Below are positions 6,482 to 50,599 of a stretch of DNA of 64,000 bases, in pieces. Under the pieces are notes generated by a model. That model saw only the letters and a list, made by a program, of their open reading frames with translations, did no database searches and had not been told where the DNA came from. The stretch is from assembly GCA_947561715.1 (NCBI GenBank), contig OX387203.1, forward strand, positions 7,936,001 to 8,000,000, written 5' to 3'. The stretch's first letter is position 1. Each line of letters opens with the position of its first letter. The DNA is from Ascidia mentula. Lineage: Eukaryota; Chordata; Ascidiacea; Phlebobranchia; Ascidiidae. Made by a program: the position numbers and the translations under genes.

Positions 6482-28427
<21,946 letters not shown>

Positions 28428-29552: not shown

Positions 29553-30316
29553 TTATGAAAACAATCTGAAAGTAATGAATGCAATATTTTTTTGGTTGAC
29601 AGACAATATGAAGTGAAACACTTTATCTTTGTCTTGCCACATTTGAAAATCAATAACATCACCTTGTTGCGATTCCCCAATAATCAAATAACCCCCTTGT
29701 TTTATCATTGTACCTTTCAGGCATCCAGATACATTTAATGGAAAGTTAGCATTTGAGGCTGCATGCAGGCATTCAAAGGACATCGAAAAATATCCCAAGT
29801 TACTTGTGTGGCTATTGAAATCAGTATCAAAACAAATCACCTTGCGTTGCCAAACAAATAACTGGTATTTATCCTGAATAGTTTTTTGGCACTCTAATGC
29901 ATTTAAGCTGTGTGTTTTACTCATATGCTGTAGCACATAGGGTTTTAGTTGGGACGGTAGTGGCACAGGCCTCCTGTACTTCTTATCAACCATGACGGCA
30001 TAAACATTGGCCTTCATGAGTAATAAGCCTTTGTTGACATCAACTACTTGGTTTGTGAGTATCATGGAAGTGGTTTTAGCAGAAGTTAATGAATGGTAAA
30101 ATTTTATGGGTAGTTTAGTCTTCTCTGTGTTGCTGGTCATTACATCATTGAAATAACCAAAAATATCTGACGTAAATTCAACGTCTACACGCAAAATAAA
30201 AACAGTCCTGCTTTCAGTTACCAGGTCTTCGCCACATGTTTCCAGAAAAATGGAATTGATGAATCTATTATTGCACATTTCATTGTAGGCCAGCCAGAGT
30301 CTTGGGTGGTATGCAG
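29553..30316 (-). CDS. double-hotdog acyl-thioesterase-like gene 1 (main exon; first exon not found)
   Basis: An open exon of 764 bases (about 254 residues) starts after the acceptor TTTTTGCAG at 30317 and ends at a stop at 29553. It is the most divergent array member. The N-terminal half aligns with the first hotdog of its neighbours (SRTVFILRVDVEFTSD, then KFYHSLTSAKTTSM). The second hotdog carries DFNSHTSN in place of the canonical DxNxHxNN. The C-terminal FHFILSVNQKNIAFI matches the final strands of the paralogues. The acceptor phase fits a short first exon like those of the type A genes, but none is recognisable upstream. The family would hydrolyse acyl thioesters; the substrate is unknown. 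Confidence 0.7.
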
Positions 30317-31145
30317 CTGCAAAAACAATTGTGCAAGTACAAACATATATGCCAAACTGAGAAACGGTAAATCATTAACTTCAAATCATCACAATGTTGC
30401 AAGTACCAAAGTTTCCCAGGTGATGCATTTCCATATGATCCACCTTTGCATGGCCAGAGCACCCATCTCTGTAAAAGACTGGCATCATTCACCACTTGCC
30501 CTACAACTATATTATACCTTCAAACAAGGATTTGCATATATGAAAAATTATAACTGTTTGATCAATCACAGTCAAAACAAAATAAGCACACAACAAAATA
30601 CATAGCAACTTTATAAACTTGAATATGAATGTTATTTAAAAAATACTTTATAGTTTTTCATTCTGATCTGAAACAAAAAACAGCATAGTGAGACATGCAA
30701 CTTTTTTTTCACCCACATACAAAATAAAACAACATTGCTCAGACTGTTTTTGCCACATTTTCGCTATCAAAACATCAGTTATTCTTACTTCACCCAACAA
30801 AACTAATGTACATTTTTGTAGCATATTTTTCTTTATGTCTGTTGACAGATTTTTTAAAGGAAATCCCTGGGCTAAAGCCTCCCCCAGACATTCCAATGGA
30901 AACAACAGAAACGCGGAGTGATTGAGATGACCATTAAGATCAGTCTCAAGAAAAGTCGGTTTTCTTTGCCATGAAAACACATTTGCACTTATAGGAATGC
31001 TCTGCTGTGGGGATTCCATCCATGCATGTGATGGAATGTTGTTCTTGTTAATGAACGCTTTGAGCTTATTTGGAAACGGAATGGACTTTCTTGTGTGAGG
31101 ATCAACTGACACAAGCATTGTAGTGTTGGTCATTAATATTATAGT

Positions 31146-34052
31146 ATGCAAGAATTTGATGCTGCAACCAAACAACCACACCAACAAAATTTCGTTATGA
31201 CTCATTTTAATGTAAGAAGTTTGCCTCATAATCTACCTATTCTAGAAGCTTTTGCTAATGCGTGCAGTGTACTACCTCATATAATTGGAATCTCCGAAAC
31301 AAAACTTAAAAAAAACACAGCAACCAACATATCTTTAGATGGATATGACTTCCTTGGAGAAAACTCCCCAACACATGCTGGTGGTGTGGGCATATATGTT
31401 AAAAGACCACTGGTTTACCGTAGAAGCGACCAGTATAAAATTCATATACCTCGTTGCGAAAATTTGTGGATTGAAGTTGACCTGAAACAAAAAAACAAAC
31501 AGAAATCAATGGTAATTGGAATAATCTACCGACACCCAGATCACAACATAACAATTTTCGCTTCACATTTAGAACACACTATCCATACTTTAAACAAAAA
31601 AAACAAAACCTTTTACATTCTTGGTGACTTTAACATCGACATTTCAAGAAAAACACCTCATGTACAAGAATACAAACTGATGATAGAGAGCCTGAACACC
31701 AAAATTATAATAGACAAAGCATCCCACACAGCCCCATCACAGAGACAATCCACTATAGACCATATCTACACAAACAATTTTTCAAATGCTATTACACCTG
31801 GTCTCATTACATTCAACATATCAGACCACTTGCCTATTTTTGCCATTATTCACAAGTCCGAACCCCAAATCATGGAATACCCTACACTTACTAGAAATTA
31901 TTTCAAATTTGACACAGACAGTTTCCTACTTATGATTGAAAACAGAGCCGGCATTATTTGGAATGAATCAGATGTTCAGGATCAATTTGCAACCTTCATC
32001 CACATTTTTCAAAACACTGTAGAAGAGCATGCTCCATACACACTACAACACAGAAGGCGCAAGGCAAAGCCTTGGATCACCAAGGGTATCCTAAAATCTA
32101 TAAAACATAAAAACAAACTTTATAGGAAACTCATTCAAAAAGGAAATCTCACACCCAACTTCAAATTATATTCCAATAAACTAAAATCAGTTATAAGAGC
32201 AGCCAAGCAAAATCACTACAAAAACTTATTTAATGTTAACAAGGCAAACCCAAAGCAAACCTGGAAACTTATTAACAAAATAACCACAAATAACGCCACA
32301 AAGAAAACACCCATATCACAAATTACCACACCCAATGGCACAGTTAAAGATCCAACGCACATTGCAAGTGAATTTAACAATTTTTTCACCAACATTGGGA
32401 AAAATATGGCACTACTTGTTCCTCCAACTCTCACAAAACCAATAGACTACCTCACAAACAGTCCATCAGCATCCTTCTTTTTCCACACTGTGGAAATAAA
32501 CGAAGTATTTAACACCATTGCACAATTAGACATAAATAAATCAACAGGCCCTCATGACATTCCCATTAAACTAGTTAAATTAGCAGCACCAGTTATTTCA
32601 CCAATCCTTTGCCAATTGCTAAACCGCTGCATCCAAACAGCAACATATCCTAAATGCTTAAAAATATCTAAAGTGATACCACTATTCAAGGGAGGGGACT
32701 CTGAAAACTTAAGTAATTACAGACCAATATCATTAATACCAATCTTTGCCAAAATATTTGAAACAATTATACATAAAAGGATGATGGACTATTTACTAAA
32801 ATTTGACCTACTCACCAAATTTCAAAATGGATTTAGACCTGGACATTCAACCGACTTAGCCATAGCACACATCTATGATCACATAGCCAATTTGTTAGAC
32901 CACCAACAGAAAACATGCGCAATATTCCTTGACCTCCAAAAAGCGTTCGACACAGTCAATCATGACATCATACTACAAAAACTAGAATTTCATGGTTTTC
33001 GGGGTAAAATTATAACCTTCCTTAAGAGCTACCTAACAGGCCGACAGCAATATACAAAAATTGCCAATTCACACTCCAATGTTTCCAATGTGGTTTGCGG
33101 CGTACCTCAGGGATCGCCTTTAGGACCCCTCCTCTTCCTTATATACATCAATGACTTGCCTTGCGCCTCCACATTCCACACAACATTATTTGCAGATGAC
33201 ACATGTCTAATCATGTCACATAAAAACATAGAGGATTTGGAGAAATATACCAATATTGAAATTGACAAGGTCAATACATGGATGCAGTCCAACAAACTAA
33301 CAGTTAATTGCCAGAAAACCAAGTTCATGCTCTTCTCCAGATGTAAAAAATTAAACAATAAGTCATTTCACCTGAAAATCAATGGCGTCACACTTGAACA
33401 AGTTGAAACAGCTAAATATCTTGGCATTGAGTTCGATAGCCAACTTTTATGGGGTCCGCACATCAGCATGCTCTGCAAAAAAATAGCCAAAACCATCGCT
33501 ATCATGTACAAGCTCAAGCACCACTTAGGCCAAGACACACTTCGAATTGTGTATCATGCACTAGTACACTCTCACCTAAGATATGGTCTTCTAACATGGG
33601 GTTTTGCTAGTCCATCACTGCTACATTCTCTAGTGGTTATGCAGAATCGGGCACTGCGCTTAGTTACCAATAGTCCTTTTCGCACCCACACCTGGCAACT
33701 ACATTTAAACACCAAAATTCTGCCGATTCACTTAATGCATAATTTACAAATTGGAAGGTTCGTACACAAGTACAAAAATCAACGTTTGCCACCAGTTTTC
33801 AAAAATTATTTCACACCAGTTGCTAGAGTTCATGCCCACACAACCAGAAGTCATACCAACCTCAAATATTTTCTTCCACGTGCATCAACGGAATTGGGCA
33901 AAAAAAACTTAAATTACAAAGGCGTAGAAATTTGGAACAACATTCCTGAAAACATAAAAAAGTTCAGTTTGGTCGGATTCCACAAAGCACTGCACGCATT
34001 CCTCATCGAATCGCTTGACAAAAATCTAAACAACAACACGTGGGCGAGGTAA
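31146..34052 (+). CDS. LINE ORF2: AP-like endonuclease and reverse transcriptase
   Basis: 968 residues in one open frame. The endonuclease part (about 18-235) shows N22 (HFNVRSL), E51 (ISETKL), GDFN (160-163) and SDH (226-228), the expected catalytic and metal-binding set. The reverse transcriptase (about 480-740) shows GFRPGHSTD, FLDLQKAFDTVNH, VPQGSPLGPLLF and the catalytic FADD (682-685). A C-terminal region with YLGIEFDSQL and WNNIPENIKKF is typical of CR1/L2 proteins. All key residues are present, so this copy may encode an active enzyme. The true N-terminus may be cut off, since the frame is open to the element's 5' edge. Confidence 0.93.
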   Translation: MQEFDAATKQPHQQNFVMTHFNVRSLPHNLPILEAFANACSVLPHIIGISETKLKKNTATNISLDGYDFLGENSPTHAGGVGIYVKRPLVYRRSDQYKIHIPRCENLWIEVDLKQKNKQKSMVIGIIYRHPDHNITIFASHLEHTIHTLNKKNKTFYILGDFNIDISRKTPHVQEYKLMIESLNTKIIIDKASHTAPSQRQSTIDHIYTNNFSNAITPGLITFNISDHLPIFAIIHKSEPQIMEYPTLTRNYFKFDTDSFLLMIENRAGIIWNESDVQDQFATFIHIFQNTVEEHAPYTLQHRRRKAKPWITKGILKSIKHKNKLYRKLIQKGNLTPNFKLYSNKLKSVIRAAKQNHYKNLFNVNKANPKQTWKLINKITTNNATKKTPISQITTPNGTVKDPTHIASEFNNFFTNIGKNMALLVPPTLTKPIDYLTNSPSASFFFHTVEINEVFNTIAQLDINKSTGPHDIPIKLVKLAAPVISPILCQLLNRCIQTATYPKCLKISKVIPLFKGGDSENLSNYRPISLIPIFAKIFETIIHKRMMDYLLKFDLLTKFQNGFRPGHSTDLAIAHIYDHIANLLDHQQKTCAIFLDLQKAFDTVNHDIILQKLEFHGFRGKIITFLKSYLTGRQQYTKIANSHSNVSNVVCGVPQGSPLGPLLFLIYINDLPCASTFHTTLFADDTCLIMSHKNIEDLEKYTNIEIDKVNTWMQSNKLTVNCQKTKFMLFSRCKKLNNKSFHLKINGVTLEQVETAKYLGIEFDSQLLWGPHISMLCKKIAKTIAIMYKLKHHLGQDTLRIVYHALVHSHLRYGLLTWGFASPSLLHSLVVMQNRALRLVTNSPFRTHTWQLHLNTKILPIHLMHNLQIGRFVHKYKNQRLPPVFKNYFTPVARVHAHTTRSHTNLKYFLPRASTELGKKNLNYKGVEIWNNIPENIKKFSLVGFHKALHAFLIESLDKNLNNNTWAR

Positions 34053-34498
34053 ACACCCCCAGGAATGTTATAATTCAATCAGACACGACACCAATTAATC
34101 AAATAATTATCGCAAACCTGCCGCCAGCACGTGCCGCCATCACGTGCCTCAACATAAGTCCACACTCCACAGACGTGCCTAGATATATCTTCACACCGTC
34201 TAATGTGTTCTGCCAAGCTTATTAATGATAGATACGTAACACATCTTTTGTTGTTGTTGTTTTGTTTTTTTTTCAAAAAAAACAAAAAAATATAAAACTA
34301 GTTGATATAAAAGGAAAAAAAAATAAAAAGTTTTTCTTCCAGTTGCCGATATGTGTTTGTCTTTTTGCAACGCCCGTACCTTCCATAGGGCCGGTCATAT
34401 GACCAAGAATGGTTCCACCGGTCCTTCGTCACGTCACCAGTCGAAATGATTGCTGCAAGTTGTTGTGCGTATTCGATGACGTTTGCGAGAAATAAAAT

Positions 34499-34523
34499 GA
34501 ATTGAATTGAATTGAATTGAATT
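34499..34523 (+). repeat. (ATTGA)n repeat at the LINE 3' end
   Basis: About five ATTGA units form the 3' terminus of the LINE directly before host gene sequence. Such short tandem repeats are the template-primed 3' ends of CR1/L2-type elements. Confidence 0.85.
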
Positions 34524-36473
34524 GTCATAAGTTTCAACTTTCATCACAGCTGATGTGTTTTTTACTGGGCCGAAAGCAGAAACAAATCGAACAGGAAGAA
34601 AGACATTTCTGCTGCTGTTTGCTGCCTGCAAGTAAGAGATGGTAGCTGGGGTAAAGTCATACTCCTTACGGAGAATAAAAATAGTTCTATTGTCAGTGAC
34701 TGGTGGTTCGTTGCATGAATTGTGGAAGGCAATCCCAAGTGCGTTGAAGCGGCACATCTCCATACCTTTTATCCAAGCAAACAATGACCCTTCATAAAGA
34801 CACAACATTTTTCTATTATACTATTAAAAAAAAAACTCTGCTCTTAAACACACACTATTGTCACTGGTGTTAAGCCATGCCTTGAAATTATGCCTAATAA
34901 ATTTAGAATTGTAACTGTACAAAACCTGTTCCATTGAGTCCTTGCAATCCCATGTTTGGAATTTGAAGATATGCATGATTTTCATCTTTAGATCTTGTGA
35001 ATGCCATTTCTGGGGCAATCAGATATTCAAAGACTATGCAAAATCACATTTATATTATACTATATATACCACAATTGCTTCAATAAATGCGGCTCGGCTT
35101 TGCGCGACAAAAGTTTGCAAATCAAAGGGGAATCCCCAATGGCAAGCAGCGCAAACTCGTCATGATTTCAAAATGCAATTGCTCAGCTTTTTGTGCACGT
35201 ATTTGTGGTAGTGGCCCCAATGCGAAGATCCTTACATGGCGAAGTTGAAAACAAATCGACGTTTGTCGTCAGGCTCTAAAATTTCACTAAAACGGGCCTT
35301 AAATAGAAAAAAAGTAATGTGGTCTCCCACAAAAACGTTTCCAATGCAAAAATATCATCTGAACAACACGATAATAAGACACAATACATTCGGGTTTAAA
35401 GGAAGATATTGTGAGAAAAGAAATTGGTTCGTCTCAAAATTTGGCAGAAAATTAAAAATAGGAGAGCATCGAGTAAGTGAACACATTCTCTCCTCACTTT
35501 CCAACTACTTTTGATTGGAATTTTTCTGTTCATCCAACGCCAGCCTCTTCCACAATCCTTTTACTTATGTTTAACCACTACCTAGTCAAGACTGTCTGGA
35601 AATCTGACTGGAAAGTCAGGCATTTATGGCTTCGACACAAAGAAGAACGAATAGGCCTAAAGCATGCAGAGATTATGGCGCAGCCGTTATTGGCCATCAA
35701 TCACTATCATTATTTGGCAACTCAACTACTCTTTACAACGAAAAAACTACAGTACCTAAGGATACATCTTTGGAAGGTATTTCTGCTCTCTTGAGCGGAA
35801 CTAATTAATATTTGTTAATATGTGATTTAGGCCCTATAATTCTTTTGAACGACTTTTGTGGCAGTCAACTAAAACATACTAAATGGCGATGCTCTGAGAA
35901 AAATTGGCCAAAACACAGAAGTGAGCGTATAGCCCACGTTTATCAACATACGCTGAATCACTGTGACCTGATTCACTTCCTAAGAACACAGAAAGGAACA
36001 CGAACGTTGTCTGATGTCGAATTCGTCAACAATTCATGTTTTGCTGCGTTAATCGGAAAATTTTTATGTACCTACTTGTTTAAAATTGATACACCGAGCG
36101 TACGATTTATTTCCACACAACGTTGCATAAATTGAGTTTTTGAACGCAAAAACATAATCGCATGCATTTAGGGGTTCATGATTTCCACACATTTATCAAC
36201 TTGCTATGGAAACAAGAAAACTGTCATTGTTCACCCTATATTGCAGAAAAAACGCAAAACGACGTTTCCTGGGTAATGACAAGATTACTCAAATTTTTTC
36301 GAACATTTTTTCTGATGGAATATGCCAAAACGGTCGCATTGCATGGAAGGCGTAGCATCGTGACTTTTAAATGTTCGTTTAGTTTAGGGTATGGGCAGGC
36401 AAGCAACTTTCAGAGTATATACATGTATAACATCATAACTATGTATGACTGGTTTGCCCTCCGGACTACAACC

Positions 36474-37370
36474 CTAACAACGAAGAGACATTGAAAGAAA
36501 TGAAACTTGCTTTTCCAAAACCGACATTACAAAATGGAATGTCTGATCTGCACTTTGCCACATTTGGATGGTAATCACTTGTCCCAATATCGACTCGCTT
36601 GCAATCACCAGAGAGCAGTGTTTGATCATGCAGTCGTCAAAATTTCCAGGCAACCGAAATTGCTGCATTTTCTGGATGGCTTCTCCAATGCATTCAAAGG
36701 CCATGATTGTGTAAGAACTATTGTTTGCGTGGTTGTTCCGATCAACAAAATACAAGTCAACAGTTCTCTTCCATTTGAATACCAGCACATCTTTAGGTAC
36801 GACCCTTGACGGTTCTCCAGGAAAATAGTAGCTTAGAGTTGGATGGGCATTGACAAAGGCTCTTACTTCTTCCGAAAAAGCAATTGGCTTTCGAGAAGCC
36901 ATGTTCACCAACACCATTTTCAGGGTCATTCTCATGTACTTTGTGCCATTGATCGGGTCAACAACATCGCATAGATACACAGAAGACGTGTTCCCAACTT
37001 GGGCAGTAGTGTGAATGAAGCGAAGAGGTCTTTGAAATTCCCCAGGTTTTACTATCTGGTTTACATATTTACAGGCATCTTCAGTAAACTCAAAATCCTG
37101 GCGCACAACAAAAACTGTTCTGTTAGCTGATAAGAAGTTTTGTTTGTGGATTTTGTGGTAGATTCGATTGGTAGAATCAGCTCGACACAACTCAGTCAAC
37201 TTGAGCCAAGGTAAGGGGTCATTTCTACCTAAAAGGCAAAGTAAACCAATATTTGACCTTATTTGCTGCATATTTAAGCAAGCAATCTTACGTTTGTTTC
37301 CAAGTCGATGAATTCCAAGGTTGTTGACCTGTATGTATCCTGTTACCCCACCTCCGTAATAGCTTTTCAT
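36474..37370 (-). CDS. double-hotdog acyl-thioesterase-like gene 3 (type A, unit 1)
   Basis: Exons 37292-37370 and 36474-37228 join at a 63-base GT-AG intron to give 277 residues. The intron has no in-frame stop, so retention would simply add 21 residues. Exon 1 codes for a Gly-rich start (MKSYYGGGVTGYIQVNNLGI). The first hotdog covers about 60-150 (RTVFVVRQDFEF, PLRFIHTTAQVGNTSS, KMVLVNMASRKPIAF). The second covers about 170-277 and holds DRNNHANN near 189, the DxNxHxNN active-site motif of plant/bacterial acyl-ACP thioesterases and related hotdog enzymes. No signal peptide or membrane segment is seen, so a soluble intracellular enzyme is likely. Substrate not predictable. Confidence 0.85.
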   Translation of the reverse strand: MKSYYGGGVTGYIQVNNLGIHRLGNKRKIACLNMQQIRSNIGLLCLLGRNDPLPWLKLTELCRADSTNRIYHKIHKQNFLSANRTVFVVRQDFEFTEDACKYVNQIVKPGEFQRPLRFIHTTAQVGNTSSVYLCDVVDPINGTKYMRMTLKMVLVNMASRKPIAFSEEVRAFVNAHPTLSYYFPGEPSRVVPKDVLVFKWKRTVDLYFVDRNNHANNSSYTIMAFECIGEAIQKMQQFRLPGNFDDCMIKHCSLVIASESILGQVITIQMWQSADQTFHFVMSVLEKQVSFLSMSLRC

Positions 37371-37936
37371 GGCTTTCGAGCTCTAGTTAAACTGTTTTTA
37401 AACTAACATGGGATCTGGTGGTAAACATGGTTATGAACACAACAGTTGTTTGATTTTAGATTGGTTAATAATTGATAGTCATAAAGATTTCCTCTGTATT
37501 CATGTTTCAGTCACCACTTAATATTATAAAGCATTTTTAAAAAACATAATTTTGAACTCAACACAATTTAAGAAGACACATTTCTCATGTAGCCATACAT
37601 CTAAGCTTTAACAAAAGGAACTATACAAATGATATACTGTTTATATGTGTTAATCACTTTCTAAATACACCATCCTTGTAAGGTTCATATCTTGTCATAA
37701 TTATTTTTGTACAGGTAAGACCACTTAATGGTCAAGGTTCTTTACATGTTTTTTGGGGGTTTTGTATCAATTCTGTAAAAAAATATTAATTTTGAAAAAA
37801 ATGTATAAATGAATTATCAACACAGTTTTGCAAAAAAAATAAAGTCCATATAACAAGTGATGTGTAGTAGAAAAAAAGCAGTTTTGCAGAGTTTTTAGCA
37901 AAATGACTATAAACCGGTGTTTCTAAATAGCACAAT

Positions 37937-38000
37937 GTCGCTAATGCCGCTAATGTAGCTAATGCAGCTAATGCAGCTAATGTTGCTAATGCCGCTGATG
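37937..38000. repeat. 9-bp minisatellite at a unit boundary (about 7 copies)
   Basis: About seven head-to-tail copies of a 9-base unit of type GCNGCTAAT lie just before the type B gene of unit 2. The matching place before unit 3 has about ten copies. Confidence 0.9.
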
Positions 38001-38015
38001 AATGTTATGTAAAAA

Positions 38016-38813
38016 CTATTTTATATTTTTTTTATTCTGATCTGAAACAAAAAACAGCATAGTGAGACATGCAACTTTTTTGTCACCCACATACAAAATA
38101 AAACAACATTGCCTAGACTGTTTTTGCCACATTTTCGCTATCAAAACATCAGTTATTCTTACTTCACCCAACAAAACTAATGTGCATTTTTGTAGCATAT
38201 TTTTCTTTATGTCTGTTGACAGATTTTTTAAAGGAAATCCCTGGGCTAAAGCCTCCCCCAGACATTCTAATGGAAACAACAGAAACGCGGAGTGATTGAG
38301 ATGACCATTAAGATCAGTCTCAAGACAAGTCGGTTTTCTTTGCCATGAAAACACATTTGCACTTATAGGAATGCTCTGCTGTGGGGATTCCATCCATGCA
38401 TGTGATGGAATACTGTTCTTGTTAATGAAAGCTTTGAGCTTATTTGGAAACGGAATGGACTTTCTTGTGTGAGGATCAACTGACACAAGCATTGTGGTGT
38501 TGGTCATTAAAAGAGTATTGGTGGTGATGTCATAAGTTTCAACTTTCATCACAGCTGATGTGTTTTTTACTGGGCCGAAAGCGGAAACAAAACGAACAGG
38601 AAGATAGACATTTCTGCTGCTGTTTGCTGCATGTAAGTAAGAGATGGTAGCTGGGGTAAAGTCATACTCCTTACGGAGAATAAAAATAGTTCTATTGTCA
38701 GTGACTGGTGGTTCGTTGCATGAATTGTGGAAGGCAATCCCAAGTGCGTTGAAGCGGCACATCTCCATACCTTTTATCCAAGCGAACAATGACCCTTCAT
38801 AAAGACACAACAT
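38016..38813 (-). CDS. double-hotdog acyl-thioesterase-like gene 4 (type B, unit 2)
   Basis: A single open frame of 265 residues. It starts MLCLYEGSLFAWIKGMEMC; FAWIKGMEMC aligns with LPWLKLTELC of the type A genes, so the two types share architecture from there on, but type B has no recognisable Gly-rich first exon. First hotdog: RTIFILRKEYDFT, PVRFVSAFGPVKNTS, VSVDPHTRKSIPFP. Second hotdog: DLNGHLNH near 167, with the last Asn of DxNxHxNN replaced by His, then ECLGEALAQG. An acceptor (TATGAAG) inside the frame would allow an upstream exon to be spliced on, so the true start is uncertain. Same fold as its neighbours; activity not proven. Confidence 0.82.
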   Translation of the reverse strand: MLCLYEGSLFAWIKGMEMCRFNALGIAFHNSCNEPPVTDNRTIFILRKEYDFTPATISYLHAANSSRNVYLPVRFVSAFGPVKNTSAVMKVETYDITTNTLLMTNTTMLVSVDPHTRKSIPFPNKLKAFINKNSIPSHAWMESPQQSIPISANVFSWQRKPTCLETDLNGHLNHSAFLLFPLECLGEALAQGFPLKNLSTDIKKNMLQKCTLVLLGEVRITDVLIAKMWQKQSRQCCFILYVGDKKVACLTMLFFVSDQNKKNIK

Positions 38814-40483
38814 TTTTCTATTATACTATTACAAAAAAAACTCTGCTCTTAAACACACACTATTGTCACTGGTGTTAAGCCATGCCTTGAAATTATGCCT
38901 AATAAATTTAGAATTATAACTGTACAAAACCTGTTCCATCGAGTCCTTGCAATCCCATGTTTGGAATTTGAAGATATGCATGATTTTCATCTTTAGATCT
39001 TGTGAATGCCATTTCTGGGGCAATCAGATATTCAAAGACTATGCAAAATCACATTTATATTATACTATATATAACACAATTGCTTCAATAAATGCGGCTC
39101 GGCTTTGCGCGACAAAAGTTTGCAAATCAAAGGGGAATCCCCAATGGCTAGCAGCGCAAACTCGTCATGATGGTTTTAAAATGCAATTGCTCAGCTTTTT
39201 GTGCACGTATTTGTGGTAGTGGCCCCAATGCGAAGATCCTTACATGGCGAAGTTGAAAACAAATCGACGTTTGTCGTCAGGCTCCAAAATTTCACTAAAA
39301 CGGGCCTTAAATAGAAAAAAGTAATGTGGTCTCCCACAAAAACGTTTCCAATGCAAAAATATCATCTGAACAACACGATAATAAGACACAATACATTCGG
39401 GTTAAAAGGAAGATATTGTGAGAAAAGAAATTGGTTCGTCTCAAAATTTGGCAGAAAATTAAAAATAGGAGAGCATCGAGTAAGTGAACACATTCTCTCC
39501 GCACTTTCCAACTACTTTTGATTGGAATTTTTCTGTTCATCCAACGCCAGCCTCTTCCACAATCCTTTTACTTATGTTTAACCACTACCTAGTCAAGACT
39601 GTCTGGAAATCTGACTGGAAAGTCAGGCATTTATGGCTTCGACACAAAGAAGAACGAATAGGCCTAAAGCATGCAGAGATTATGGCGCAGCCGTTATTGG
39701 CCATCAATCACTATCATTATGCGGCAACTCAACTACTCTTTACAACGAAAAAACTACAGTACCTAAGGATACATCTTTGGAAGGTATTTCTGCTCTCTTG
39801 AGCGGAACTAATTAATATTTGTTAATATGTGATTTAGGCCCTATAATTCTTTTGAACGACTTGTGGCTGTCAACTAAAACATAGTAAATGGCGATGCTCT
39901 GAGAAAAATTGGCCAAAACACAGAAGTGAGCGTATAGCCCACGTTTATCAACATACGCTGAATCACTGTGACCTGATTCACTTCCTAAGAACACAGAAAG
40001 GAACACGAACGTTGTCTGATGTCGAATTCGTCAACAATTCATGTTTTGCTGCGTTAATCGGAAAATTTTTATGTACCTACTTGTTTAAAATTGATACACC
40101 GAGCGTACGATTTATTTCCACACAACGTTGCATAAATTAAGTTTTTGAACGCAAAAATATAATCGCATGCATTTAGGGGTTCATGATTTCCACACATTTA
40201 TCAACTTGATATAGAAACAAGAAAACTGTCATTGTTCACCCTATATTGCAGAAAAAACACAAAACGACGTTTCCTGGGTAATGACAAAGATTACTCTTAT
40301 TTTTATCGAACATTTGTCTGATGGAATATGCCAAAACGGTCGCATTGCATGGAAGGCGTAGCATCGTGACTTCCTTTTAAATGTTCCTTTAGTTTAGGGT
40401 ATGGGCAGGCAAGCAACTTTCAGAGTATATACATGTATAACATCATAACTATGTATGACTGGTTTGCCTTCCGGACTACAACC

Positions 40484-41380
40484 CTAACAACGGAGAGACA
40501 TTGAAATAAATGAAACTTGCTTTTCCAAAACCGACATTACGAAATGGAATGTCTGATCTGCACTTTGCCACATTTGGATGGTAATCACTTGTCCCAATAT
40601 CGACTCGCTTGCAATCACCAGAGAGCAGTGTTTGATCATGCAGTCGTCAAAATTTCCAGGCAACCGAAATTGCTGCATTTTCTGGATGGCTTCTCCAATG
40701 CATTCAAAGGCCATGATTGTGTAAGAACTATTGTTTGCGTGGTTGTTCCGATCAACAAAATACAAGTCAACAGTTCTCTTCCTTTTGAATACCAGCACAT
40801 CTTTAGGTACGACCCTTGACGGTTCTCCAGGAAAATAGTAGCTTGGAGTTGGATGGGCATTGACGAAGGCTCTTACTTCTTCCGAAAAAGCAATTGGCTT
40901 TCGAGAAGCCATGTTCACCAACACCATTTTCAGGGTCATTCTCATGTACTTTGTGCCATTGATCGGGTCAACAACATCGCATAGATACACAGAAGACGTG
41001 TTCCCAACTTGGGCAGTAGTGTGAATGAATCGAAGAGGTCTTTGAAATTCCCCAGGTTTTACTATCTGGTTTACATATTTACAGGCTTCTTCAGTAAACT
41101 CAAAATCCTGGCGCACAACAAAAACTGTTCTGTTAGCTGATAAGAAGTTTTGTTTGTGAATTTTGTGGAAGATTCGATTAGTAGAATCAGCTCGACACAA
41201 CTCAGTCAACTTGAGCCAAGGTAAGGGGTCATTTCTACCTAAAAGGCAAAGTAAACCAATATTTGACCTTATTTGCTGCATATTTAAGCAAGTAATCTTA
41301 CGTTTGTTTCCAAGTCGATGAATTCCAAGGTTGTTGACCTCTATGTATCCTGTTACCCCACCTCCGTAATAGCTTTTCAT
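40484..41380 (-). CDS. double-hotdog acyl-thioesterase-like gene 5 (type A, unit 2)
   Basis: Exons 41302-41380 and 40484-41238, with a 63-base intron and 277 residues. It is almost identical to genes 3 and 7, differing at a handful of residues (for example KRKRTVDLY where the others have KWKRTVDLY). The DRNNHANN motif, the two hotdog halves and the Gly-rich start are all kept. The intron is again stop-free in frame. The first intron base context (AAC|GTAAGA) is the same in all type A copies. Likely soluble acyl thioesterase of unknown substrate. Confidence 0.85.
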   Translation of the reverse strand: MKSYYGGGVTGYIEVNNLGIHRLGNKRKITCLNMQQIRSNIGLLCLLGRNDPLPWLKLTELCRADSTNRIFHKIHKQNFLSANRTVFVVRQDFEFTEEACKYVNQIVKPGEFQRPLRFIHTTAQVGNTSSVYLCDVVDPINGTKYMRMTLKMVLVNMASRKPIAFSEEVRAFVNAHPTPSYYFPGEPSRVVPKDVLVFKRKRTVDLYFVDRNNHANNSSYTIMAFECIGEAIQKMQQFRLPGNFDDCMIKHCSLVIASESILGQVITIQMWQSADQTFHFVMSVLEKQVSFISMSLRC

Positions 41381-42050
41381 GGCAAGCTCTAGTTAAACTG
41401 TTTTTAAACTAACATGGGCATCTGGTGGTAAACATGGTTATGAAAACAATATTTGTTTGATTTTACTAAAAAAAGCAGTAGCTTTTTATACAGGATCAGC
41501 CTGGCTTATAAATCAGGAATATATATTTCACCCCATGGGCATCTTCAGTTTCTTATTCAAATTGTTTGATTTTAGATAGGTTAATGATTGATAGTCATAA
41601 ACATTTTCTCTGTATCCATGTTTTAGTCACCACATAAAATAATAAAGCATTTTTAAAAACATAATTTTGAACCCAACACAATTTAAGAAGATATATTTCT
41701 CATGTAGCCATACATCTAAGCTTTAACAAAAGGAACTATACAAATGATATACTGTTTATATGTGTTAATCACTTTCTAAATACACCATCCTTGTAAGGTT
41801 CATATCTTGTCATAATTATTTTTGTACAGGTAAGACCACTTAATGGTCAAGGTTCTTTACATGTTTTTTGGGGGTTTTGTATCAATTCTGTAAAAAAATA
41901 TTAATTTTGAAAAAAATGTATAAATGAATTATCAACACAGTTTTGCAAAAAAAATAAAGTCCATATAACAAGTGATGTGTAGTAGAAAAAAAGCAGTTTT
42001 GCAGAGTTTTTAGCAAAATGACTATAAACCGGTGTTTCTAAAATGCACAA

Positions 42051-42142
42051 TGTCGCTAAAGTCGCTAATGCCGCTAATGCCGCTAATGCCGCTAATGTAG
42101 CTAATGCAGCTAATGCAGCTAATGTTGCTAATGCCGCTGATG
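42051..42142. repeat. 9-bp minisatellite at a unit boundary (about 10 copies)
   Basis: This is the same 9-base array as at 37.9 kb, but with about three extra copies, most of them GCCGCTAAT. It precedes the type B gene of unit 3. Confidence 0.9.
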
Positions 42143-42157
42143 AATGTTATGTAAAAA

Positions 42158-42955
42158 CTATTTTATATTTTTTTTATTCTGATCTGAAACAAAAAACAGC
42201 ATAGTGAGACATGCAACTTTTTTGTCACCCACATACAAAATAAAACAACATTGCTTAGACTGTTTTTGCCACATTTTCGCTATCAAAACATCAGTTATTC
42301 TTACTTCACCCAACAAAACTAATGTGCATTTTTGTAGCATATTTTTCTTTATGTCTGTTGACAGATTTTTTAAAGGAAATCCCTGGGCTAAAGCCTCCCC
42401 CAGACATTCTAATGGAAACAACAGAAACGCGGAGTGATTGAGATGACCATTGAGATCAGTCTCAAGACAAGTCGGTTTTCTTTGCCATGAAAACACATTT
42501 GCACTTATAGGAATGCTATGCTGTGGGGGTTCCATCCATGCATGTGATGGAATACTGTTCTTGTTAATGAAAGCTTTGAGCTTATTTGGAAACGGAATGG
42601 ACTTTCTTGTATGAGGATCAACTGACACAAGCATTGTGGTGTTGGTCATTAAAAGAGTATTGGTGGTGATGTCATAAGTTTCAACTTTCATCACAGCTGA
42701 TGTGTTTTTTACTGGGCCGAAAGCAGAAACAAATCGAACAGGAAGAAAGACATTTCTGCTGCTGTTTGCTGCCTGCAAGTAAGAGATGGTAGCTGGGGTA
42801 AAGTCATACTCCTTACGGAGAATAAAAATAGTTCTATTGTCAGTGACTGGTGGTTCGTTGCATGAATTGTGGAAGGCAATCCCAAGTGCGTTGAGGCGGC
42901 ACATCTCCACACCTTTTATCCAAGCAAACAATGACCCTTCATAAAGACACAACAT
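42158..42955 (-). CDS. double-hotdog acyl-thioesterase-like gene 6 (type B, unit 3)
   Basis: A single open frame of 265 residues, nearly identical to gene 4. Differences include KGVEMCRLN for KGMEMCRFN and MEPPQHS for MESPQQS. The second hotdog keeps DLNGHLNH. The N-terminal stretch matches the split gene 2 slightly better than gene 4 does (YLQAANSSRNVFL), which suggests gene conversion or a duplication order in which units 1 and 3 share this segment. The start codon has the same uncertainty as in gene 4. Confidence 0.82.
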   Translation of the reverse strand: MLCLYEGSLFAWIKGVEMCRLNALGIAFHNSCNEPPVTDNRTIFILRKEYDFTPATISYLQAANSSRNVFLPVRFVSAFGPVKNTSAVMKVETYDITTNTLLMTNTTMLVSVDPHTRKSIPFPNKLKAFINKNSIPSHAWMEPPQHSIPISANVFSWQRKPTCLETDLNGHLNHSAFLLFPLECLGEALAQGFPLKNLSTDIKKNMLQKCTLVLLGEVRITDVLIAKMWQKQSKQCCFILYVGDKKVACLTMLFFVSDQNKKNIK

Positions 42956-43444
42956 TTTTCTATTATACTATTAAAAAAAAAACTCTGCTCTTAAACACAC
43001 ACTATTGTCACTGGTGTTAAGCTATGCCTTGAAATTATGCCTAATAAATTTAGAATTGTGATTGTATAAAACCTGTTCCATTGAGTCCTTGCAATCCCAT
43101 GTTTGGAATTTGAAGATATGCATGATTTTCATCTTTAGATCTTGTGAATGCCATTTCTGGGGCAATCAGATATTCAAAGACTATGCAAAATCACATTTAT
43201 GTTATACTACATATGCCACAATTGCTTCAATAAATACGGCTCGGGCTTTGCGCGACAAAAGTTTGCAAATCAAAGGGGAATCCCCAATAGCAAGCAGCGC
43301 AAACTCGTCATGATGGTTTTAAAATGCAATTGCTCAGCTTTTTTTGCTCATATTTGTGGTAGTGGCCCCAATGCGAAGATCCTTACATGGAGAAGTTGAA
43401 CACAAATCGACGTTAGTCGTCAGACTCTAAAATTTCACTAAAAC

Positions 43445-44283
43445 AAGAACGAATAAAGTGTGCAGAGATTATGGCGCGGCCGTTGGCCATTATAATCACT
43501 ATTATTATTTGGCAACTCAACTACTCTTTGCAACGAAAAAACTACAGTACCTAAGGATACATCTTTGGAAGGTATTTTAGCTCTCTTGAGCGGAACTATT
43601 CAATATTTCTTAATATGTGATTTAGGCCCTATAATTATTTTGAACGACTTTGTGACTTTCAACCAAAACATACTAAATGGCGATGCTCTTAGAAAAATTG
43701 GTTAAAACACAGAAGTGAGCGTATAGCCCACGTTTATCAACATACGCTGAATCACTGTGACCTGATTCATTTCCTAAGAACACATCCGCACTTTCCAATT
43801 AAAAAATTACTTTGATTGGAATTTTTCTGTTCATCCAACACCAGCCTCTACCACAGTCCTTTTACCTACGTTTAACCACTACTTAGTCAAGATTGTCTGG
43901 AAATCTGACTGGAAAGTCAGGCATTTATGGCTTCGACACAAAGAAGAACGAATAGGCCTAAAGCATGCAGAGATTATGGGGCCGTTTGCTGGCCATTAAT
44001 CACTATCATTATTTGGCAACTCAACTACTCTTTGCAACAAAAAAACTACAGCACCTAAGGATACATTTGAAAGGTATTTCTGCTCTCTTGTGCGGAACTA
44101 ATAAATATTTCTTAATATGTGATTTAATTCTTTTGAACGACTCGTGGCAGCCAACTAAAACATACTAAATGGCGATGCTCTTAGAAAAATTGGCCAAAAC
44201 ACAGAAGTGAGCGTATAGCGCACGTTTATCAACATAGGCCTACGCCTAATCACTGATGTGACCTGATTCATTTCCTAAGAACA
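43445..44283. repeat. local tandem duplication inside the unit 3 spacer
   Basis: A stretch of about 340 bases occurs twice, near 43445-43786 and 43944-44283. Both copies begin AAGAACGAATA and run to TTCCTAAGAACACA. Units 1 and 2 have it once. It explains why the distance between the type B and type A genes is larger in unit 3. Noncoding. Confidence 0.8.
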
Positions 44284-44791
44284 CAGAAAGGAACACGAAC
44301 GTTGTCTGTTTTTCGAATTTCGAATTCGTCAACAATTAATGTTTTGCTGCGTTAATCGGAAAGTTTTTAGGTACCTAGCTAGGCCTACTTGTTGAAAATG
44401 GATACACCTAGCGTACGATTTATTTCTACACAACGTTGCATAAATTGAGTTTTGTACGCAAAAACATAAAAGCATAATCGCATGCTTTAAGGAATTCATG
44501 ATTTCCACACATTTATCAACTTGATATAGAAACAAGAAAACTGTCATTGTTCACCCTATATTGCAGAAAAAACACAAAACGACGTTTCCTGGGTAATGAC
44601 AAGATTTTTTTTTTCGAACATTTGTCTGATGGAATATGCCAAAACGGTCGCATTGCATGGAAGGCATAGCATCGTGACTTCCTTTTAAATGTTCGTTTAG
44701 TTTAGAGTATGGGCAAGCAAGCAACTTTCAGAGTACATACATGTATAACATCATAACTATGTATGGCTGGTTTGCCCTCTAGGCTACAACC

Positions 44792-45688
44792 CTAACAACG
44801 AAGAGACATTGAAATAAATGAAACTTGCTTTTCCAAAACCGACATTACAAAATGGAATGTCTGATCTGCACTTTGCCACATTTGGATGGTAATCACTTGT
44901 CCCAATATCGACTCGCTTGCAATCACCAGAGAGCAGTGTTTGATCATGCAGTCGTCAAAATTTCCAGGCAACCGAAATTGCTGCATTTTCTGGATGGCTT
45001 CTCCAATGCATTCAAAGGCCATGATTGTGTAAGAACTATTGTTTGCGTGGTTGTTCCGATCAACAAAATACAAGTCAACAGTTCTCTTCCATTTGAATAC
45101 CAGCACATCTTTAGGTACGACCCTTGACGGTTCTCCAGGAAAATAGTAGCTTGGAGTTGGATGGGCGTTGACAAAGGCTCTTACTTCTTCCGAAAAAGCA
45201 ATTGGCTTTCGAGAAGCCATGTTCACCAACACCATTTTCAGGGTCATTCTCATGTACTTTGTGCCATTGATCGGGTCAACAACATCGCATAGATATACAG
45301 AAGACGTGTTCCCAACTTGGGCAGTAGTGTGAATGAATCGAAGAGGTCTTTGAAAATCCCCAGGTTTTACTATCTGGTTTACATATTTACAGGCTTCTTC
45401 AGTAAACTCGAAATCCTGGCACACAACAAAAACTGTTCTGTTAGCTGATAAGAAGTTTTGTTTGTGGATTTTGTGGTAGATTCGATTGGTAGAATAAGCT
45501 CGACACAACTCAGTCAACTTGAGCCAAGGTAAGGGGTCATTTCTACCTAAAAGGCAAAGTAAACCAATATTTGACCTTATTTGCTGCATATTTAAGCAAG
45601 CAATCTTACGTTTGTTTCCAAGTTGATGAATTCCAAGGTTGTTGACCTCTATGTATCCTGTTACCCCACCTCCGTAATAGCTTTTCAT
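44792..45688 (-). CDS. double-hotdog acyl-thioesterase-like gene 7 (type A, unit 3)
   Basis: Exons 45610-45688 and 44792-45546, with a 63-base stop-free intron and 277 residues. It is near-identical to genes 3 and 5. Differences include FVVCQDFEF for FVVRQDFEF and CRAYSTNR for CRADSTNR. DRNNHANN and the hotdog halves are kept. Same likely role as the other type A genes. Confidence 0.85.
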   Translation of the reverse strand: MKSYYGGGVTGYIEVNNLGIHQLGNKRKIACLNMQQIRSNIGLLCLLGRNDPLPWLKLTELCRAYSTNRIYHKIHKQNFLSANRTVFVVCQDFEFTEEACKYVNQIVKPGDFQRPLRFIHTTAQVGNTSSVYLCDVVDPINGTKYMRMTLKMVLVNMASRKPIAFSEEVRAFVNAHPTPSYYFPGEPSRVVPKDVLVFKWKRTVDLYFVDRNNHANNSSYTIMAFECIGEAIQKMQQFRLPGNFDDCMIKHCSLVIASESILGQVITIQMWQSADQTFHFVMSVLEKQVSFISMSLRC

Positions 45689-47107
45689 GGCTTTCGAGCT
45701 CTAGTTAAACTGTTTTTAAACTAACAGGGGCATCTGGTGGCAAACATGGTTATGAACACAATATTTGTTTGGTTTTAGATAGGTTAATGATTGATAGTCA
45801 TAAAGATTTTCTCTGTATCCATGTTTTAGTCACCACATAAAATAATAAAGTATTTTTAAAAACATAACTTTGAACTCAACACTATTAGGAATAAACATTA
45901 CTCATGCAGCCATAACTCTAAGCTTTAACAAAAGGAACTATACAAATGATATACTGTATAAATGTGTTAATCACTTTCTAAATACACCATCCTTGTAAGG
46001 TTCATATCTTGTCATAATTATTTTTGTCCAGATAAGACCAGTTAATGGTCAAGGTTCTTTACATATTTGTTTCTGTTTTTATCAATTCAGTAAAAAAAAT
46101 ATTAATTTTAAATAAAAATGAAAATGAATTATCAACACAGTTTTGCAAAAAAATAAAGTCTATAACAAGTGATGTGTAGTGTGTTGTAAAAAAAGCAGTT
46201 TTGCAGAGTTTTTAGCCAAATGACTATAAACTGTCGTTATATGCATCATGCAAGATGCAACATGCAAGTAATAATTATTTGAGATCATGATTATGATTGG
46301 AATGAATGGCATGCTGTGATTGGGTAAATTAACCTCAAAAATAAATTCAGGCATTGTCAATTCACACTCTGAATGTTACACATTCTAACTATAGCTACAA
46401 AGTTTTAAAACTACGATAAAAAATAATCTACCATAACAAAAATACATGACGCAGCATAAACAAATCCAGTTACAAAAAGGGAAATTCCCCGATTCATGAA
46501 AACTTAACCAACCACAAAAAAATAAAAGGATTTGCAAAATCTGAAAGTTTCAAATTTGCAAGCAAAAACCACAATGAAAATGTGTGTACTTTATTTCAAA
46601 TACATACACAAGAAAAACAAATAAAGTCAAGTATTTTTGATCAGCGCTGTTTTGTGCTCTAAGGCCGGGTCCACACTCCCACTTTGCGCCGGCGGATTTT
46701 TGGAAACTAAGTGCCAGAAGAGCAATTCTGATTAATTAAACTATCTTCATGTTTTTTATCAAAAATATCGTGGAAGCAAATGCTATGTTTTTGCCGGAAG
46801 CAGACATGATAAAATGAAATATTCCATTTGTCGCGCATGATTGAAACTAAACTATCTTCATGTTTTTTATCAAAAATATGGGATTGTATTCCCAAGCTAT
46901 CATTAAGCATAAATGCTAATATTTCTATGTTTTCAAGCTTGCTGATCTGCATGGATTCTGTGACTGTATGATCATGATAAATTTTCATTGCGTTTGAGGT
47001 AACGATGTAGTTTAGTCCTACCTTTTCAACTTACGTCTACCTGGTCTTGCAAACATGATTATGTACACCACAGCAGTTGGATTCACATTCGGTCAACATT
47101 CACTGCG
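45689..47107. other. spacer after unit 3, with a direct repeat and a hotdog relic
   Basis: To about 46230 the sequence matches the spacers after the other type A genes. Beyond that it is unique. A 32-base direct repeat (46737-46768 and 46848-46879) surrounds a small coding relic, listed separately. The minus-strand frame 46707-46988 mostly reflects this repeat. Confidence 0.6.
46763..46831 (-). pseudogene. relic of a double-hotdog thioesterase-like gene (last strands only)
   Basis: 23 codons read TNGIFHFIMSASGKNIAFAS and onward on the minus strand, matching the C-terminal GLFHFIMSLGDKNIAYVT of gene 9. No further homologous part was found nearby. It lies between two 32-base direct repeats. 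It shows the array once extended differently here. Confidence 0.6.
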
Positions 47108-48008
47108 TCAACAACGTATAAGAGACATTGAAATAAACGAAACTTGCTTTCCAGAAGCCGATATTACGAAATGAAAGGTCTCATCTGCACTTTGCCACAT
47201 TTGGATGGTAATCTCTTGTCCCAATACCGACTCGCTTGCAATCACCAGAGAGCAATGTTTGATCATGCAGTCGTCATAATTTCCAGGCAACCGAAACTGC
47301 CGCATCTTCTGGATGCCTTCTCCAATACATTCAAGGGCCATAACTGTGTACACGCAATAGTTTGTGTGGTTGTTGCGGCTAACATCGAAGGTGCCGACTT
47401 TTCGTTTCCAGTTGAATAACTGCACGCCTGCTGGTACCACCCTTTCCGGTTCTTTAGGAAAATAGTAGTTTAGAGTTGGATGGGCGTTAACCAAATCTCT
47501 AATTTCTTTTGAGAAATCAATTGGTTTTCGAGTAGCCCTATTCACCAATACCATCTTCATAGTCATTCTCATGTACTTTGTGCCATTGATCGGGTCAACA
47601 ACATCGCATAGATACACAGAAGACGTGTTGCCAACTTGGGCAGTGGTATGAACAAAGCGAACAGATCTTTGACATTCCCCAGGTTTTACTATTTGGTTTA
47701 TGTATTTATAGGCTTCTTCAGTAAACTCGAAATCCTGGCGTACAACAAAAAATGTTTTATTTGCTGTCAAGAAGGTTTGATTGTGGACTTTGCAGAAGAT
47801 TTGGTTGCTCAAATTAGCCCAACACAGTTCAGTCATCTTAAGCCAAGGCAAAGGGTCAAATCTACCTAAAGGCAAAGTATGCTATTATGTGACATTATAG
47901 TTGCAATATAGTTAGGCAAACAATCTTACGTTTGTTTCCAAGTGGATGGATTCCAAAGTTGTTGACCTCTATGTATCCTGTTACCCCACCTCCATAATGG
48001 CTTTTCAT
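47108..48008 (-). CDS. double-hotdog acyl-thioesterase-like gene 8 (divergent type A)
   Basis: Exons 47930-48008 and 47108-47865, with a 64-base intron and 278 residues. Exon 1 (MKSHYGGGVTGYIEVNNFGI) is clearly type A, but the body differs widely from genes 3, 5 and 7. The active-site stretch reads SRNNHTNY, so the leading Asp and the last Asn of DxNxHxNN are both changed, although the central N and H remain. Such changes could weaken thioesterase activity or alter substrate. ECIGEGIQKMRQF and the C-terminal hotdog strands are kept, and the frame is open, which argues for constraint. Confidence 0.82.
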
Positions 48009-48660: not shown

Positions 48661-48908
48661 CGCAGTAATATTTCATGCAATGGCACGATAGGCAGGATCG
48701 CCCAACTGCGCAGGTCCTTGCTTGGCGATCACAGCTAACGTATCGCGATCATGAGGTTTTCAGGCTTTGCACCCCAGGCAATGCAGCCTCTGGATCAACC
48801 ACTTTTTCAAGTCGGAGCAAGATTTGAAAAATCAAGCTCCCGGTGAGGTTTGAACTCACGACCCTGGGCTAACCAGGCCCAACGCTCTACCAACTGAGCT
48901 ACAGGAGC
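48661..48908 (-). mobile_element. tRNA-derived SINE, full copy
   Basis: On the minus strand the element starts with a tRNA-like head (48836-48908), followed by a body of about 175 bases ending near 48661. With the partial copy at 49018-49179 it forms one insertion flanked by the 13-base direct repeat CATCATAGATATA (48648-48660 and 49180-49192). The body holds a GGATCGCC/GGCGATC inverted pair. It lies between genes 8 and 9. Confidence 0.8.
48836..48908 (-). other. tRNA-like head of the SINE (not a functional tRNA call)
   Basis: The 73-base stretch has a closable acceptor stem (GCTCCTG with CGGGAGC), D arm (GCTCAGTTGGTAGAGC, the A box) and T arm (GTGAGTTCAAACCTCAC, the B box). The anticodon arm closes only with an extra base at position 26, so the anticodon is ambiguous. 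Together with the repeated body and the second copy at 58.7 kb, it is a SINE promoter, not a tRNA gene. Confidence 0.75.
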
Positions 48909-49017
48909 AAAGTGGTTTCACGGTGTATATTGTGGCCAAGATACACTGGTGCGCAAGCGCACAACTTGCCAGGCATCCTTCACATATACGTAGGGGATCT
49001 CTACCACCGTATCAGAT

Positions 49018-49179
49018 AACGCAGTAATATTTCATGCAATGGCATGATAGGCAGGATCGCCCCACTGCGCAGGTCCTTGCTTGGCGATCACAGCTAACGT
49101 ATCGCGATCATGAGGTTTTCAGGCTTTGCAGCCCAGGCACTGCAGCCTAGCTGGATCAGCCACTTTTTCCTGGATCAGC
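49018..49179 (-). mobile_element. partial SINE copy (body only) in the same insertion
   Basis: It is about 95% identical by eye to the body of the full copy at 48661-48800 and in the same orientation, but lacks the tRNA head. About 110 bases of other sequence separate it from the full copy. The 13-base target duplication lies outside both, so they probably inserted as one dimeric transcript. Confidence 0.75.
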
Positions 49180-49569
49180 CATCATAGATATATTTATTAT
49201 CAGGCAACTTTTCCATGATTACAATTGAAACTGATCAATATCCGCATTGTATCACATTTACAGAAAATATAAGGCACGACCGCCTGAAAATACATGACGC
49301 AGCATAATCAAATCCAGTTGCAGAACAAAATCCACCAGTCCGAAGAAAAGTTAACCAAATCATGTACAATGTCAAATGTTTACCAAAACAAAACGTTCAC
49401 TTTTGTTAGCAAGCAGACACACAATTCAAATCCCCAATGACTGGAAATGACTTTTCTTTTTGCTGATCATCAGCTCGATTGGTTATGAGCATGCCAAGAA
49501 TAATTAAAATTAACGGAGACAAAGTTACGTCGTGGATTTTCACCAGCATGTATACACAGCAAAGCGTTG

Positions 49570-50599
49570 TTAACAGCGGAGCGCCAAAGTAACATACGCT
49601 ATGTTTTTATCGCCGAGAGACATGATAAAATGAAATAATCCATCTTCACTCTGCCACATTTTAACATTTATGTCTTGTCCCAGTCTTGATTCGCCTGCTA
49701 TTATCACCGAATATTTCTTAATCTCACAAGAGTCAATTTCACCGGGCAAATTTATCTTATATGCCTTGTCAGTTGCATGGCCAATGCATTCCCATGCTGC
49801 TTTTGGATAAACGGAATTATTGGCGTGTGCGTTGTAATCCACATCAAGAAGACAGACAGTTTTTTTCCAAATGAACACTGAGACGTTCGCGCCGGGCGCA
49901 GCTCGTACTGGTTCCTCTGCAATGCTGTAACTCTGGATGGAAAAGCTGTTGACAAACGATTTGAATGCATTTGGAAAAGGAACAGGTCGCCTTTTGACTC
50001 TGTCAACTAACACAAAAGTCTGAATCAATGTCATATATTTTATCCTTTCATGCGGGTCAGTTGCCTCCACCAAAACCATTAAGGATGTATTCTTCACCTT
50101 GAGTATTGTACTCGTAAAACGTACAGGCTGTTTTAGTACAAGTTTGCCTTCATCATGAGGGTGTTTTATGGGGCCCAGATGGAATGCTTCTAAAAATTCA
50201 AAATCCTGCTGAGCCAAAAAAAGAGTTCGTCCAGCGTCCCGTATTCTCTCATTGCAGATTTTCATGTATAGAGTGACAAAAATTGCCAAGCTGCCCATTT
50301 CCGCGTTTCTCAGCCAAGGCAAAATGTCTTGAAAACCTTAAAATAATTATTCACATAAGCGTGAGCCCAATATTATGACTTTGTGAGCTGCGTACAGATG
50401 CGCACTGTTTTGAACTATGGTCTCAACAGTGTTGTTTGGTGTAACTACTAATAATTCCAGTCCGGTGGTCAATTTACAAGTTACAATAACCTTTCAGTAC
50501 AACCATTGAACTATTACTTTTACCTTTTCGTTTTGGATCTATTCCAATATTGTCAAGCTCAATGTAGCCCTTCACTCCTTCTCCTAGAAACTGTTTCAT
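49570..50599 (-). CDS. double-hotdog acyl-thioesterase-like gene 9 (canonical motif)
   Basis: Exons 50524-50599 and 49570-50336, with a 187-base intron and 280 residues. Exon 1 reads MKQFLGEGVKGYIELDNIGI, clearly homologous to the type A first exons. The first hotdog spans about 60-150 (RTLFLAQQDFEF, PVRFTSTILKVKNTS, TFVLVDRVKRRPVPFP). The second holds DYNAHANN near 192, the canonical DxNxHxNN, followed by WECIGHA. It is the array's outermost member on the TIMELESS side and keeps the complete motif, so it may be closest to the ancestral gene. A soluble acyl thioesterase is the best guess. Confidence 0.85.

Follow-up and report, generated by a model that had tools for sequence, protein, structure and literature searches.

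A tandem array of probable acyl-ACP thioesterase-like double-hotdog genes in the ascidian Ascidia mentula

Introduction

Does an animal genome harbor enzymes related to the acyl-acyl carrier protein (ACP) thioesterases of the FAT type? The question is raised by a stretch of 64,000 nucleotides from the ascidian Ascidia mentula (contig OX387203.1, positions 7,936,001 to 8,000,000), which is referred to as the window and provides the coordinates given below; it lies on the contig designated C71 of an assembly of 195.8 Mb in 79 contigs, which was searched as a whole. Positions 29553-50599 of its minus strand contain nine copies of one gene family, of which eight are open and one is split by a retroelement of the long interspersed nuclear element (LINE) type, plus a relic of a further member. 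As judged from sequence profiles and predicted structures, these genes probably code for divergent FAT-type (acyl-ACP thioesterase-like) double-hotdog hydrolases, and the array is regarded as an animal branch of a known type of enzyme that has diverged and expanded.

In plants and bacteria, acyl-ACP thioesterases terminate fatty acid synthesis and determine the chain length; the plant enzymes are herbicide targets (PMC3176148, PMC12713704). A survey of the family describes members from plants, algae, and bacteria, and its main text never uses the word "animal" (PMC3176148). Among the literature matches listed, no title or beginning of an abstract refers to FAT-type enzymes in animals, most subscription journals being outside the coverage.

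Fold and Family Assignment

A Pfam search with the ten open reading frames (ORFs) of the array showed matches to the hotdog family 4HBT_2 above the cut-off (25.5 bits) for two of them, gene 9 (31.6 bits, E = 2.5e-7) and gene 4 (25.7 bits); six further ORFs matched below the cut-off and two not at all. The acyl-ACP thioesterase domain Acyl-ACP_TE_C (PF20791) was matched below the cut-off by five ORFs (genes 9, 7, 5, 3, and 1), with gene 9 scoring best (16.7 bits vs. a cut-off of 21, E = 0.0086), and PF01643 was matched neither by the ten ORFs nor elsewhere in the genome. Gene 8 gave no Pfam match at E ≤ 10, and an NCBIfam search with five ORFs yielded weak matches in two of them, all far below the cut-off. 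Because the Pfam cut-offs for acyl-ACP thioesterases were not reached, the family is filed as a divergent FAT-like relative rather than as a plain member.

The relationship becomes apparent at the level of profiles. A profile made from nine members found its best PDB match in the Chlamydomonas enzyme 9mqf (E = 7.3e-6), along with FatB from Umbellularia (E = 3.7e-4) and FatA from Arabidopsis (E = 2.1e-3), closely followed by the single-hotdog thioesterase 5eo2 (E = 2.5e-3); none of the three FAT structures was recovered with gene 9 alone as query. In a profile-profile comparison, residues 117-248 of gene 9, a stretch that reaches from the end of hotdog 1 across the linker to the active-site Glu of hotdog 2, align with five acyl-ACP thioesterases (probability 95, E = 1.6e-8). 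The first 116 residues lie outside this alignment, and the assignment of hotdog 1 in this part is based on the 4HBT_2 match and the structure prediction. The models predicted for exon 2 of gene 9 (predicted local distance difference test, pLDDT, 83.0) and for the read-through ORF of gene 7 (pLDDT 76.5) both contain two tandem hotdogs in one chain, the first strand of hotdog 1 not being resolved, and their alignment by VIA-align covers 216-244 residues of acyl-ACP thioesterases. An earlier note on this DNA had proposed two hotdog halves and an acyl-ACP-thioesterase-like placement; both are supported by the sequence profiles and the predicted structures, and neither of the outcomes which it had named in advance as speaking against them, the lack of two hotdog folds or an affiliation with an unrelated family, was observed.

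Compared to the FatA and FatB enzymes of plants and algae (TE14; PF01643 + PF20791; structures 7hqq, 9hrr, 5x04, 9mqf), the array proteins share the two tandem hotdogs with an alignable linker stretch, the D-x-N-x-H motif where hotdog 2 begins, and a Glu on a following strand. They differ by a sequence identity of only about 10-16%, by lacking an N-terminal extension and a PF01643 match, by an Asp-Glu spacing of 49 residues, which is 11 longer than the 38 in FatA/FatB, by not always keeping the residue corresponding to Asn269, and by occurring in multiple copies in an animal. The bacterial acyl-ACP thioesterases (4gak from Spirosoma, 2ess from Bacteroides, 2own from Lactobacillus) are likewise 10-16% identical, whereas the array genes contain introns. 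The animal enzymes ACOT7 and ACOT12, which hydrolyse acyl-CoA, resemble the array proteins in carrying two hotdogs per chain, and the acetyltransferase/decarboxylase LnmK (4hzo, 6x7l) shows 8-11% identity and is missing from the 19 chains obtained in the PDB profile search at E ≤ 10.

Active Site

The catalytic centre proposed for FatA consists of Asp262, Asn264, His266, Asn269, and Glu300 in the C-terminal half, and the N-terminal half forms the substrate cavity (PMC12713704). In an alignment of hidden Markov models (HMMs), these residues correspond to D192, N194, H196, N199, and E241 of gene 9, whose numbering is used for an alignment (A1) of nine sequences from five array copies and four dispersed ones. 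All nine rows agree at N194, H196, and E241, and D192 is kept in eight, being replaced by Ser in gene 8, which leaves the set of Asp, Asn, His, and Glu complete in eight of nine members. N199, the counterpart of the oxyanion-hole residue Asn269, is kept in five sequences (genes 9, 7, and 1 and the copies on contigs C2 and C1) and is replaced by Tyr in gene 8, by His in gene 6 (type B) and in the copy C69a, and by Thr in the copy on C73. Genes 9 and 1 carry the full Asp-Asn-His-Asn-Glu set. With regard to the DxNxHxNN variants described for the second half in the earlier note, gene 8 is devoid of the catalytic Asp.

Gene Structure and Subtypes

All copies that could be modelled are predicted to consist of two exons separated by a phase-1 intron, which in genes 3, 5, 6, 7, 8, and 9 is of the GT-AG type and 63-187 nt long. 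The nine minus-strand copies had already been recognized in the earlier note, and ORFs are indeed present at the respective positions, as given below for each gene together with its model.

Gene 9 (ORF 49570-50337) is composed of exon 1 at 50524-50599, a GT-AG phase-1 intron at 50337-50523, and exon 2 at 49570-50336, coding for 280 amino acids. The type A genes 7, 5, and 3 code for 277 amino acids each and are made up of exon 1, a 63-nt intron, and exon 2 at 45610-45688, 45547-45609, and 44792-45546 (gene 7, ORF 44792-45700), at 41302-41380, 41239-41301, and 40484-41238 (gene 5, ORF 40484-41392), and at 37292-37370, 37229-37291, and 36474-37228 (gene 3, ORF 36474-37382), respectively. Their exons appear as one ORF because the 63-nt intron contains no in-frame stop. 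Gene 8 (ORF 47108-47881), a diverged type A gene of 278 codons, shows the same arrangement with exon 1 at 47930-48008, a 64-nt intron at 47866-47929, and exon 2 at 47108-47865. The type B genes 6 and 4 code for 286 amino acids each, gene 6 (ORF 42158-42967) with exon 1 at 43073-43154, a 136-nt intron at 42937-43072, and exon 2 at 42158-42936, and gene 4 (ORF 38016-38825) with exon 1 at 38931-39012, the intron at 38795-38930, and exon 2 at 38016-38794; exon 1 of gene 4 was placed by eye and translates open. The type B gene 2 is split into a 5' part at 34523-35007 (exon 1 at 34926-35007) and a 3' part at 30648-31136, as judged from blastn and the gene model (ORFs 30648-31232 and 34434-34820). 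Exon 2 of gene 1 (ORF 29553-30371) was assigned by eye to 29553-30316, its exon 1 lying with some uncertainty upstream at about 30395-30440. The putative relic at 46707-47030 (minus strand) contains pieces similar to exon 1 and to the C-terminal strands, the reading frame changing between them, and its recognition, in the earlier note as well as here, is based on reading the sequence by eye.

The two subtypes had been distinguished by a glycine-rich first exon in A and its absence in B. In fact, type B possesses a homologue of the type A first exon (in gene 6 at 43073-43154) and lacks the glycine run only. Similarly, the described alternation of A and B applies to genes 2 to 7 only, since gene 8 is a diverged A copy and genes 9 and 1 represent separate subtypes in the tree. 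Just upstream of 43154 and 50599 on the minus strand, the start codons of genes 6 and 9 are preceded at a distance of 2-5 bases by an acceptor-like CAG or TAG, which could mark an intron in the 5' untranslated region or a spliced leader.

Duplication and Decay

A self-comparison of the array by blastn revealed 97.8% identity over 2946 columns between 34523-37458 and 38528-41465, 95.9% between 37446-39301 and 41562-43444, and 92.7% between 39498-41465 and 43785-45777. With such pieces being 92-98% identical between the units, the pair of a B and an A gene, roughly 4 kb in length, has been copied in tandem recently. Of the lineage-specific expansion suggested before, the recent local expansion is thereby established, and its restriction to one lineage is hypothetical. 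Gene 8 shares 82-83% DNA identity with type A and, from its sequence, is an older relative of this type.

At the protein level, genes 3, 5, and 7 are 97-98% identical and genes 4 and 6 97%, and values between subtypes range from 24 to 50%. The ratio of nonsynonymous to synonymous substitutions (dN/dS) amounts to 0.20-0.54 among the three A copies, which differ by few changes, to 0.31 for genes 4 and 6, and to 0.26 for the pair on C69; for gene 8 compared with genes 3, 5, and 7 it is 0.29-0.32 at 75-76% amino acid identity. These values are in line with purifying selection. Pairs of distant subtypes were left out because of saturation, and some of the sequences behind the identity and dN/dS values and in the alignments A2-A4 begin with a few intron-derived codons (genes 1 and 8, type B and, in A2 and A3, also type A).

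Gene 2 is interrupted by the LINE-type retroelement at 31137-34522 (plus strand), whose open frame of 971 codons (31137-34052) contains a reverse transcriptase domain (RVT_1, E = 1.7e-36) and an endonuclease domain (Exo_endo_phos, E = 1.8e-10). The similarity to the intact B copies stops at 31136 and restarts at 34523. As judged from the blastn ends, a stretch of 17 bases in the intact copy, 38511-38527, is without counterpart at the junction.

Copies Outside the Array

The gene family extends beyond the array, as gene 9, searched against all six frames of the genome, yielded 15 matches at E ≤ 0.01, ten in the array and five on four other contigs (C73, C2, C1, and two on C69). One half of the tree contains gene 9 with the C73 copy, the C2 copy, and type A with gene 8, and the other gene 1 with the protein P0001, the C69 pair, the C1 copy, and type B; the tree is midpoint-rooted for drawing only, and C1 and P0001 form long branches. 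Both halves are represented in the array, which is thus a mixture of old subtypes and new copies.

P0001, encoded on a contig of 3357 bases, was the only protein obtained among 2155 candidates with the A1 profile (E = 5.9e-58) and thus the only outside homologue found; a protein search with exon 2 of gene 9 gave none at E ≤ 0.01 among 192 candidates. It keeps all five active-site residues, shows no Pfam family at E ≤ 0.01, and groups with gene 1 (support 100/99), and the subtypes may therefore be older than the divergence from its source organism.

The surroundings of the dispersed copies were inspected for pathway links in ORFs of at least 85 amino acids (loci L019-L023; eight ORFs from four loci scanned, none from L022). 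One of the eight is linked to lipids, a carnitine acyltransferase (PF00755, E = 3e-186) with an open frame about 2.3 kb from the C73 copy, the two lying at L019:2858-4861 and 7176-7961; this proximity would fit a role in acyl-CoA metabolism but may be due to chance. Among the others, neither the rRNA dimethylase nor the NXPE protein is lipid-related, laminin-G matches stayed below the cut-off, and three ORFs gave no match. An apparently decayed family copy lies between the carnitine acyltransferase frame and the C73 paralogue.

Possible Function

By analogy with the FAT enzymes, the acyl chain would be accommodated in a pocket of the N-terminal hotdog, and the thioester would be cleaved in the C-terminal one via the Asp, Asn, His, and Glu equivalent to Asp262, Asn264, His266, and Glu300 of Arabidopsis FatA. 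The proteins begin near the expected first hotdog strand and lack a long N-terminal extension, which suggests a cytosolic location. To our knowledge, free acyl-ACP is not expected in the animal cytosol, and the candidate substrates are therefore acyl-CoA or acyl groups attached to cytosolic carrier domains, e.g., of large synthases. The tandem B-A duplication increases the copy number, while some copies decay, like the LINE-split gene 2, or have lost the catalytic Asp, like gene 8. A more specific scenario, in which the proteins serve as stand-alone chain-releasing enzymes for cytosolic acyl carriers of the fatty acid synthase or animal-type polyketide synthases, multiplied into subtypes with different pockets for lineage-specific lipids, appears doubtful at present. 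The fatty acid synthase of animals has a thioesterase of its own, and a multi-copy animal branch keeping most of the catalytic residues raises the questions of what role a FAT-like enzyme plays beside it and whether the family was gained by descent or by transfer.

Alternative Explanations

Acquisition by horizontal transfer, with a bacterium or an alga as the donor, concerns the origin of the genes and is compatible with their reading as FAT-like hydrolases. It is suggested by the closest solved relatives, which are algal, plant, and bacterial enzymes, and by the literature passages covered, which describe FAT-type enzymes from these groups. The shared phase-1 intron and the 24-50% identity between subtypes, however, indicate a long residence, and none of 12 pattern matches was confirmed when prokaryotic genomes were scanned with exon 2 of gene 9, a scan sensitive to close relatives only. 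On balance, such an event appears rather improbable.

The resemblance to FAT might also have arisen in an independent animal double-hotdog family by duplication or fusion of single hotdogs of the YbgC/THEM6 type (4HBT_2). In favor of this origin, 4HBT_2 gives the best match to the first half, genes 1 and 6 give weak matches to YbgC models far below the cut-off, and the profile search retrieved YbgC (E = 0.034) in addition to 5eo2. The genome also contains two 4HBT_2 matches above the cut-off at C73:1433226-1435480 (L016, L017), probably one or two single-hotdog genes, which we take to be THEM6-like. Yet an HMM comparison with the genome's own single hotdog reached a probability of 4 over 18 columns, as opposed to 95 over 121 for the FAT enzymes, the query being one hand-joined composite and hence a weak control. 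Moreover, the linker between the domains also aligns with the FAT enzymes, and the two halves are unlike each other (probability 0.4), so that this explanation seems unlikely.

That some or all of the proteins bind acyl thioesters without hydrolysing them any longer is most plausible for gene 8, with its Ser and Tyr at the positions of the catalytic Asp and Asn269, and for type B, as the Asn269 position is occupied by His in gene 6 as well as in C69a, and by Thr in C73. This is a doubtful proposition, since the joint retention of Asp, Asn, His, and Glu in eight of the nine aligned members is unexpected if catalysis had generally been lost. Finally, chance ORFs are ruled out by the paralogues on four other contigs and dN/dS values of about 0.3, and an unrelated fold by the comparisons of predicted structures.

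Flanking and Intergenic Features

Only the LINE passed a cut-off in a domain scan of ten ORFs of the window. The array is flanked by single exons of a TIMELESS gene at 53605-53928 (minus strand; protein timeless homolog 6taz, E = 5.7e-12) and, about 17 kb from its other end, of a ZSWIM8 gene at 11753-12118 (minus strand; 9rwz, E = 1.7e-31). Both point to the DNA being that of an animal. A tRNA-Thr(GGT) gene is located at 48835-48908 between genes 8 and 9, with a 66-base repeat in identical form on either side (48705-49129).
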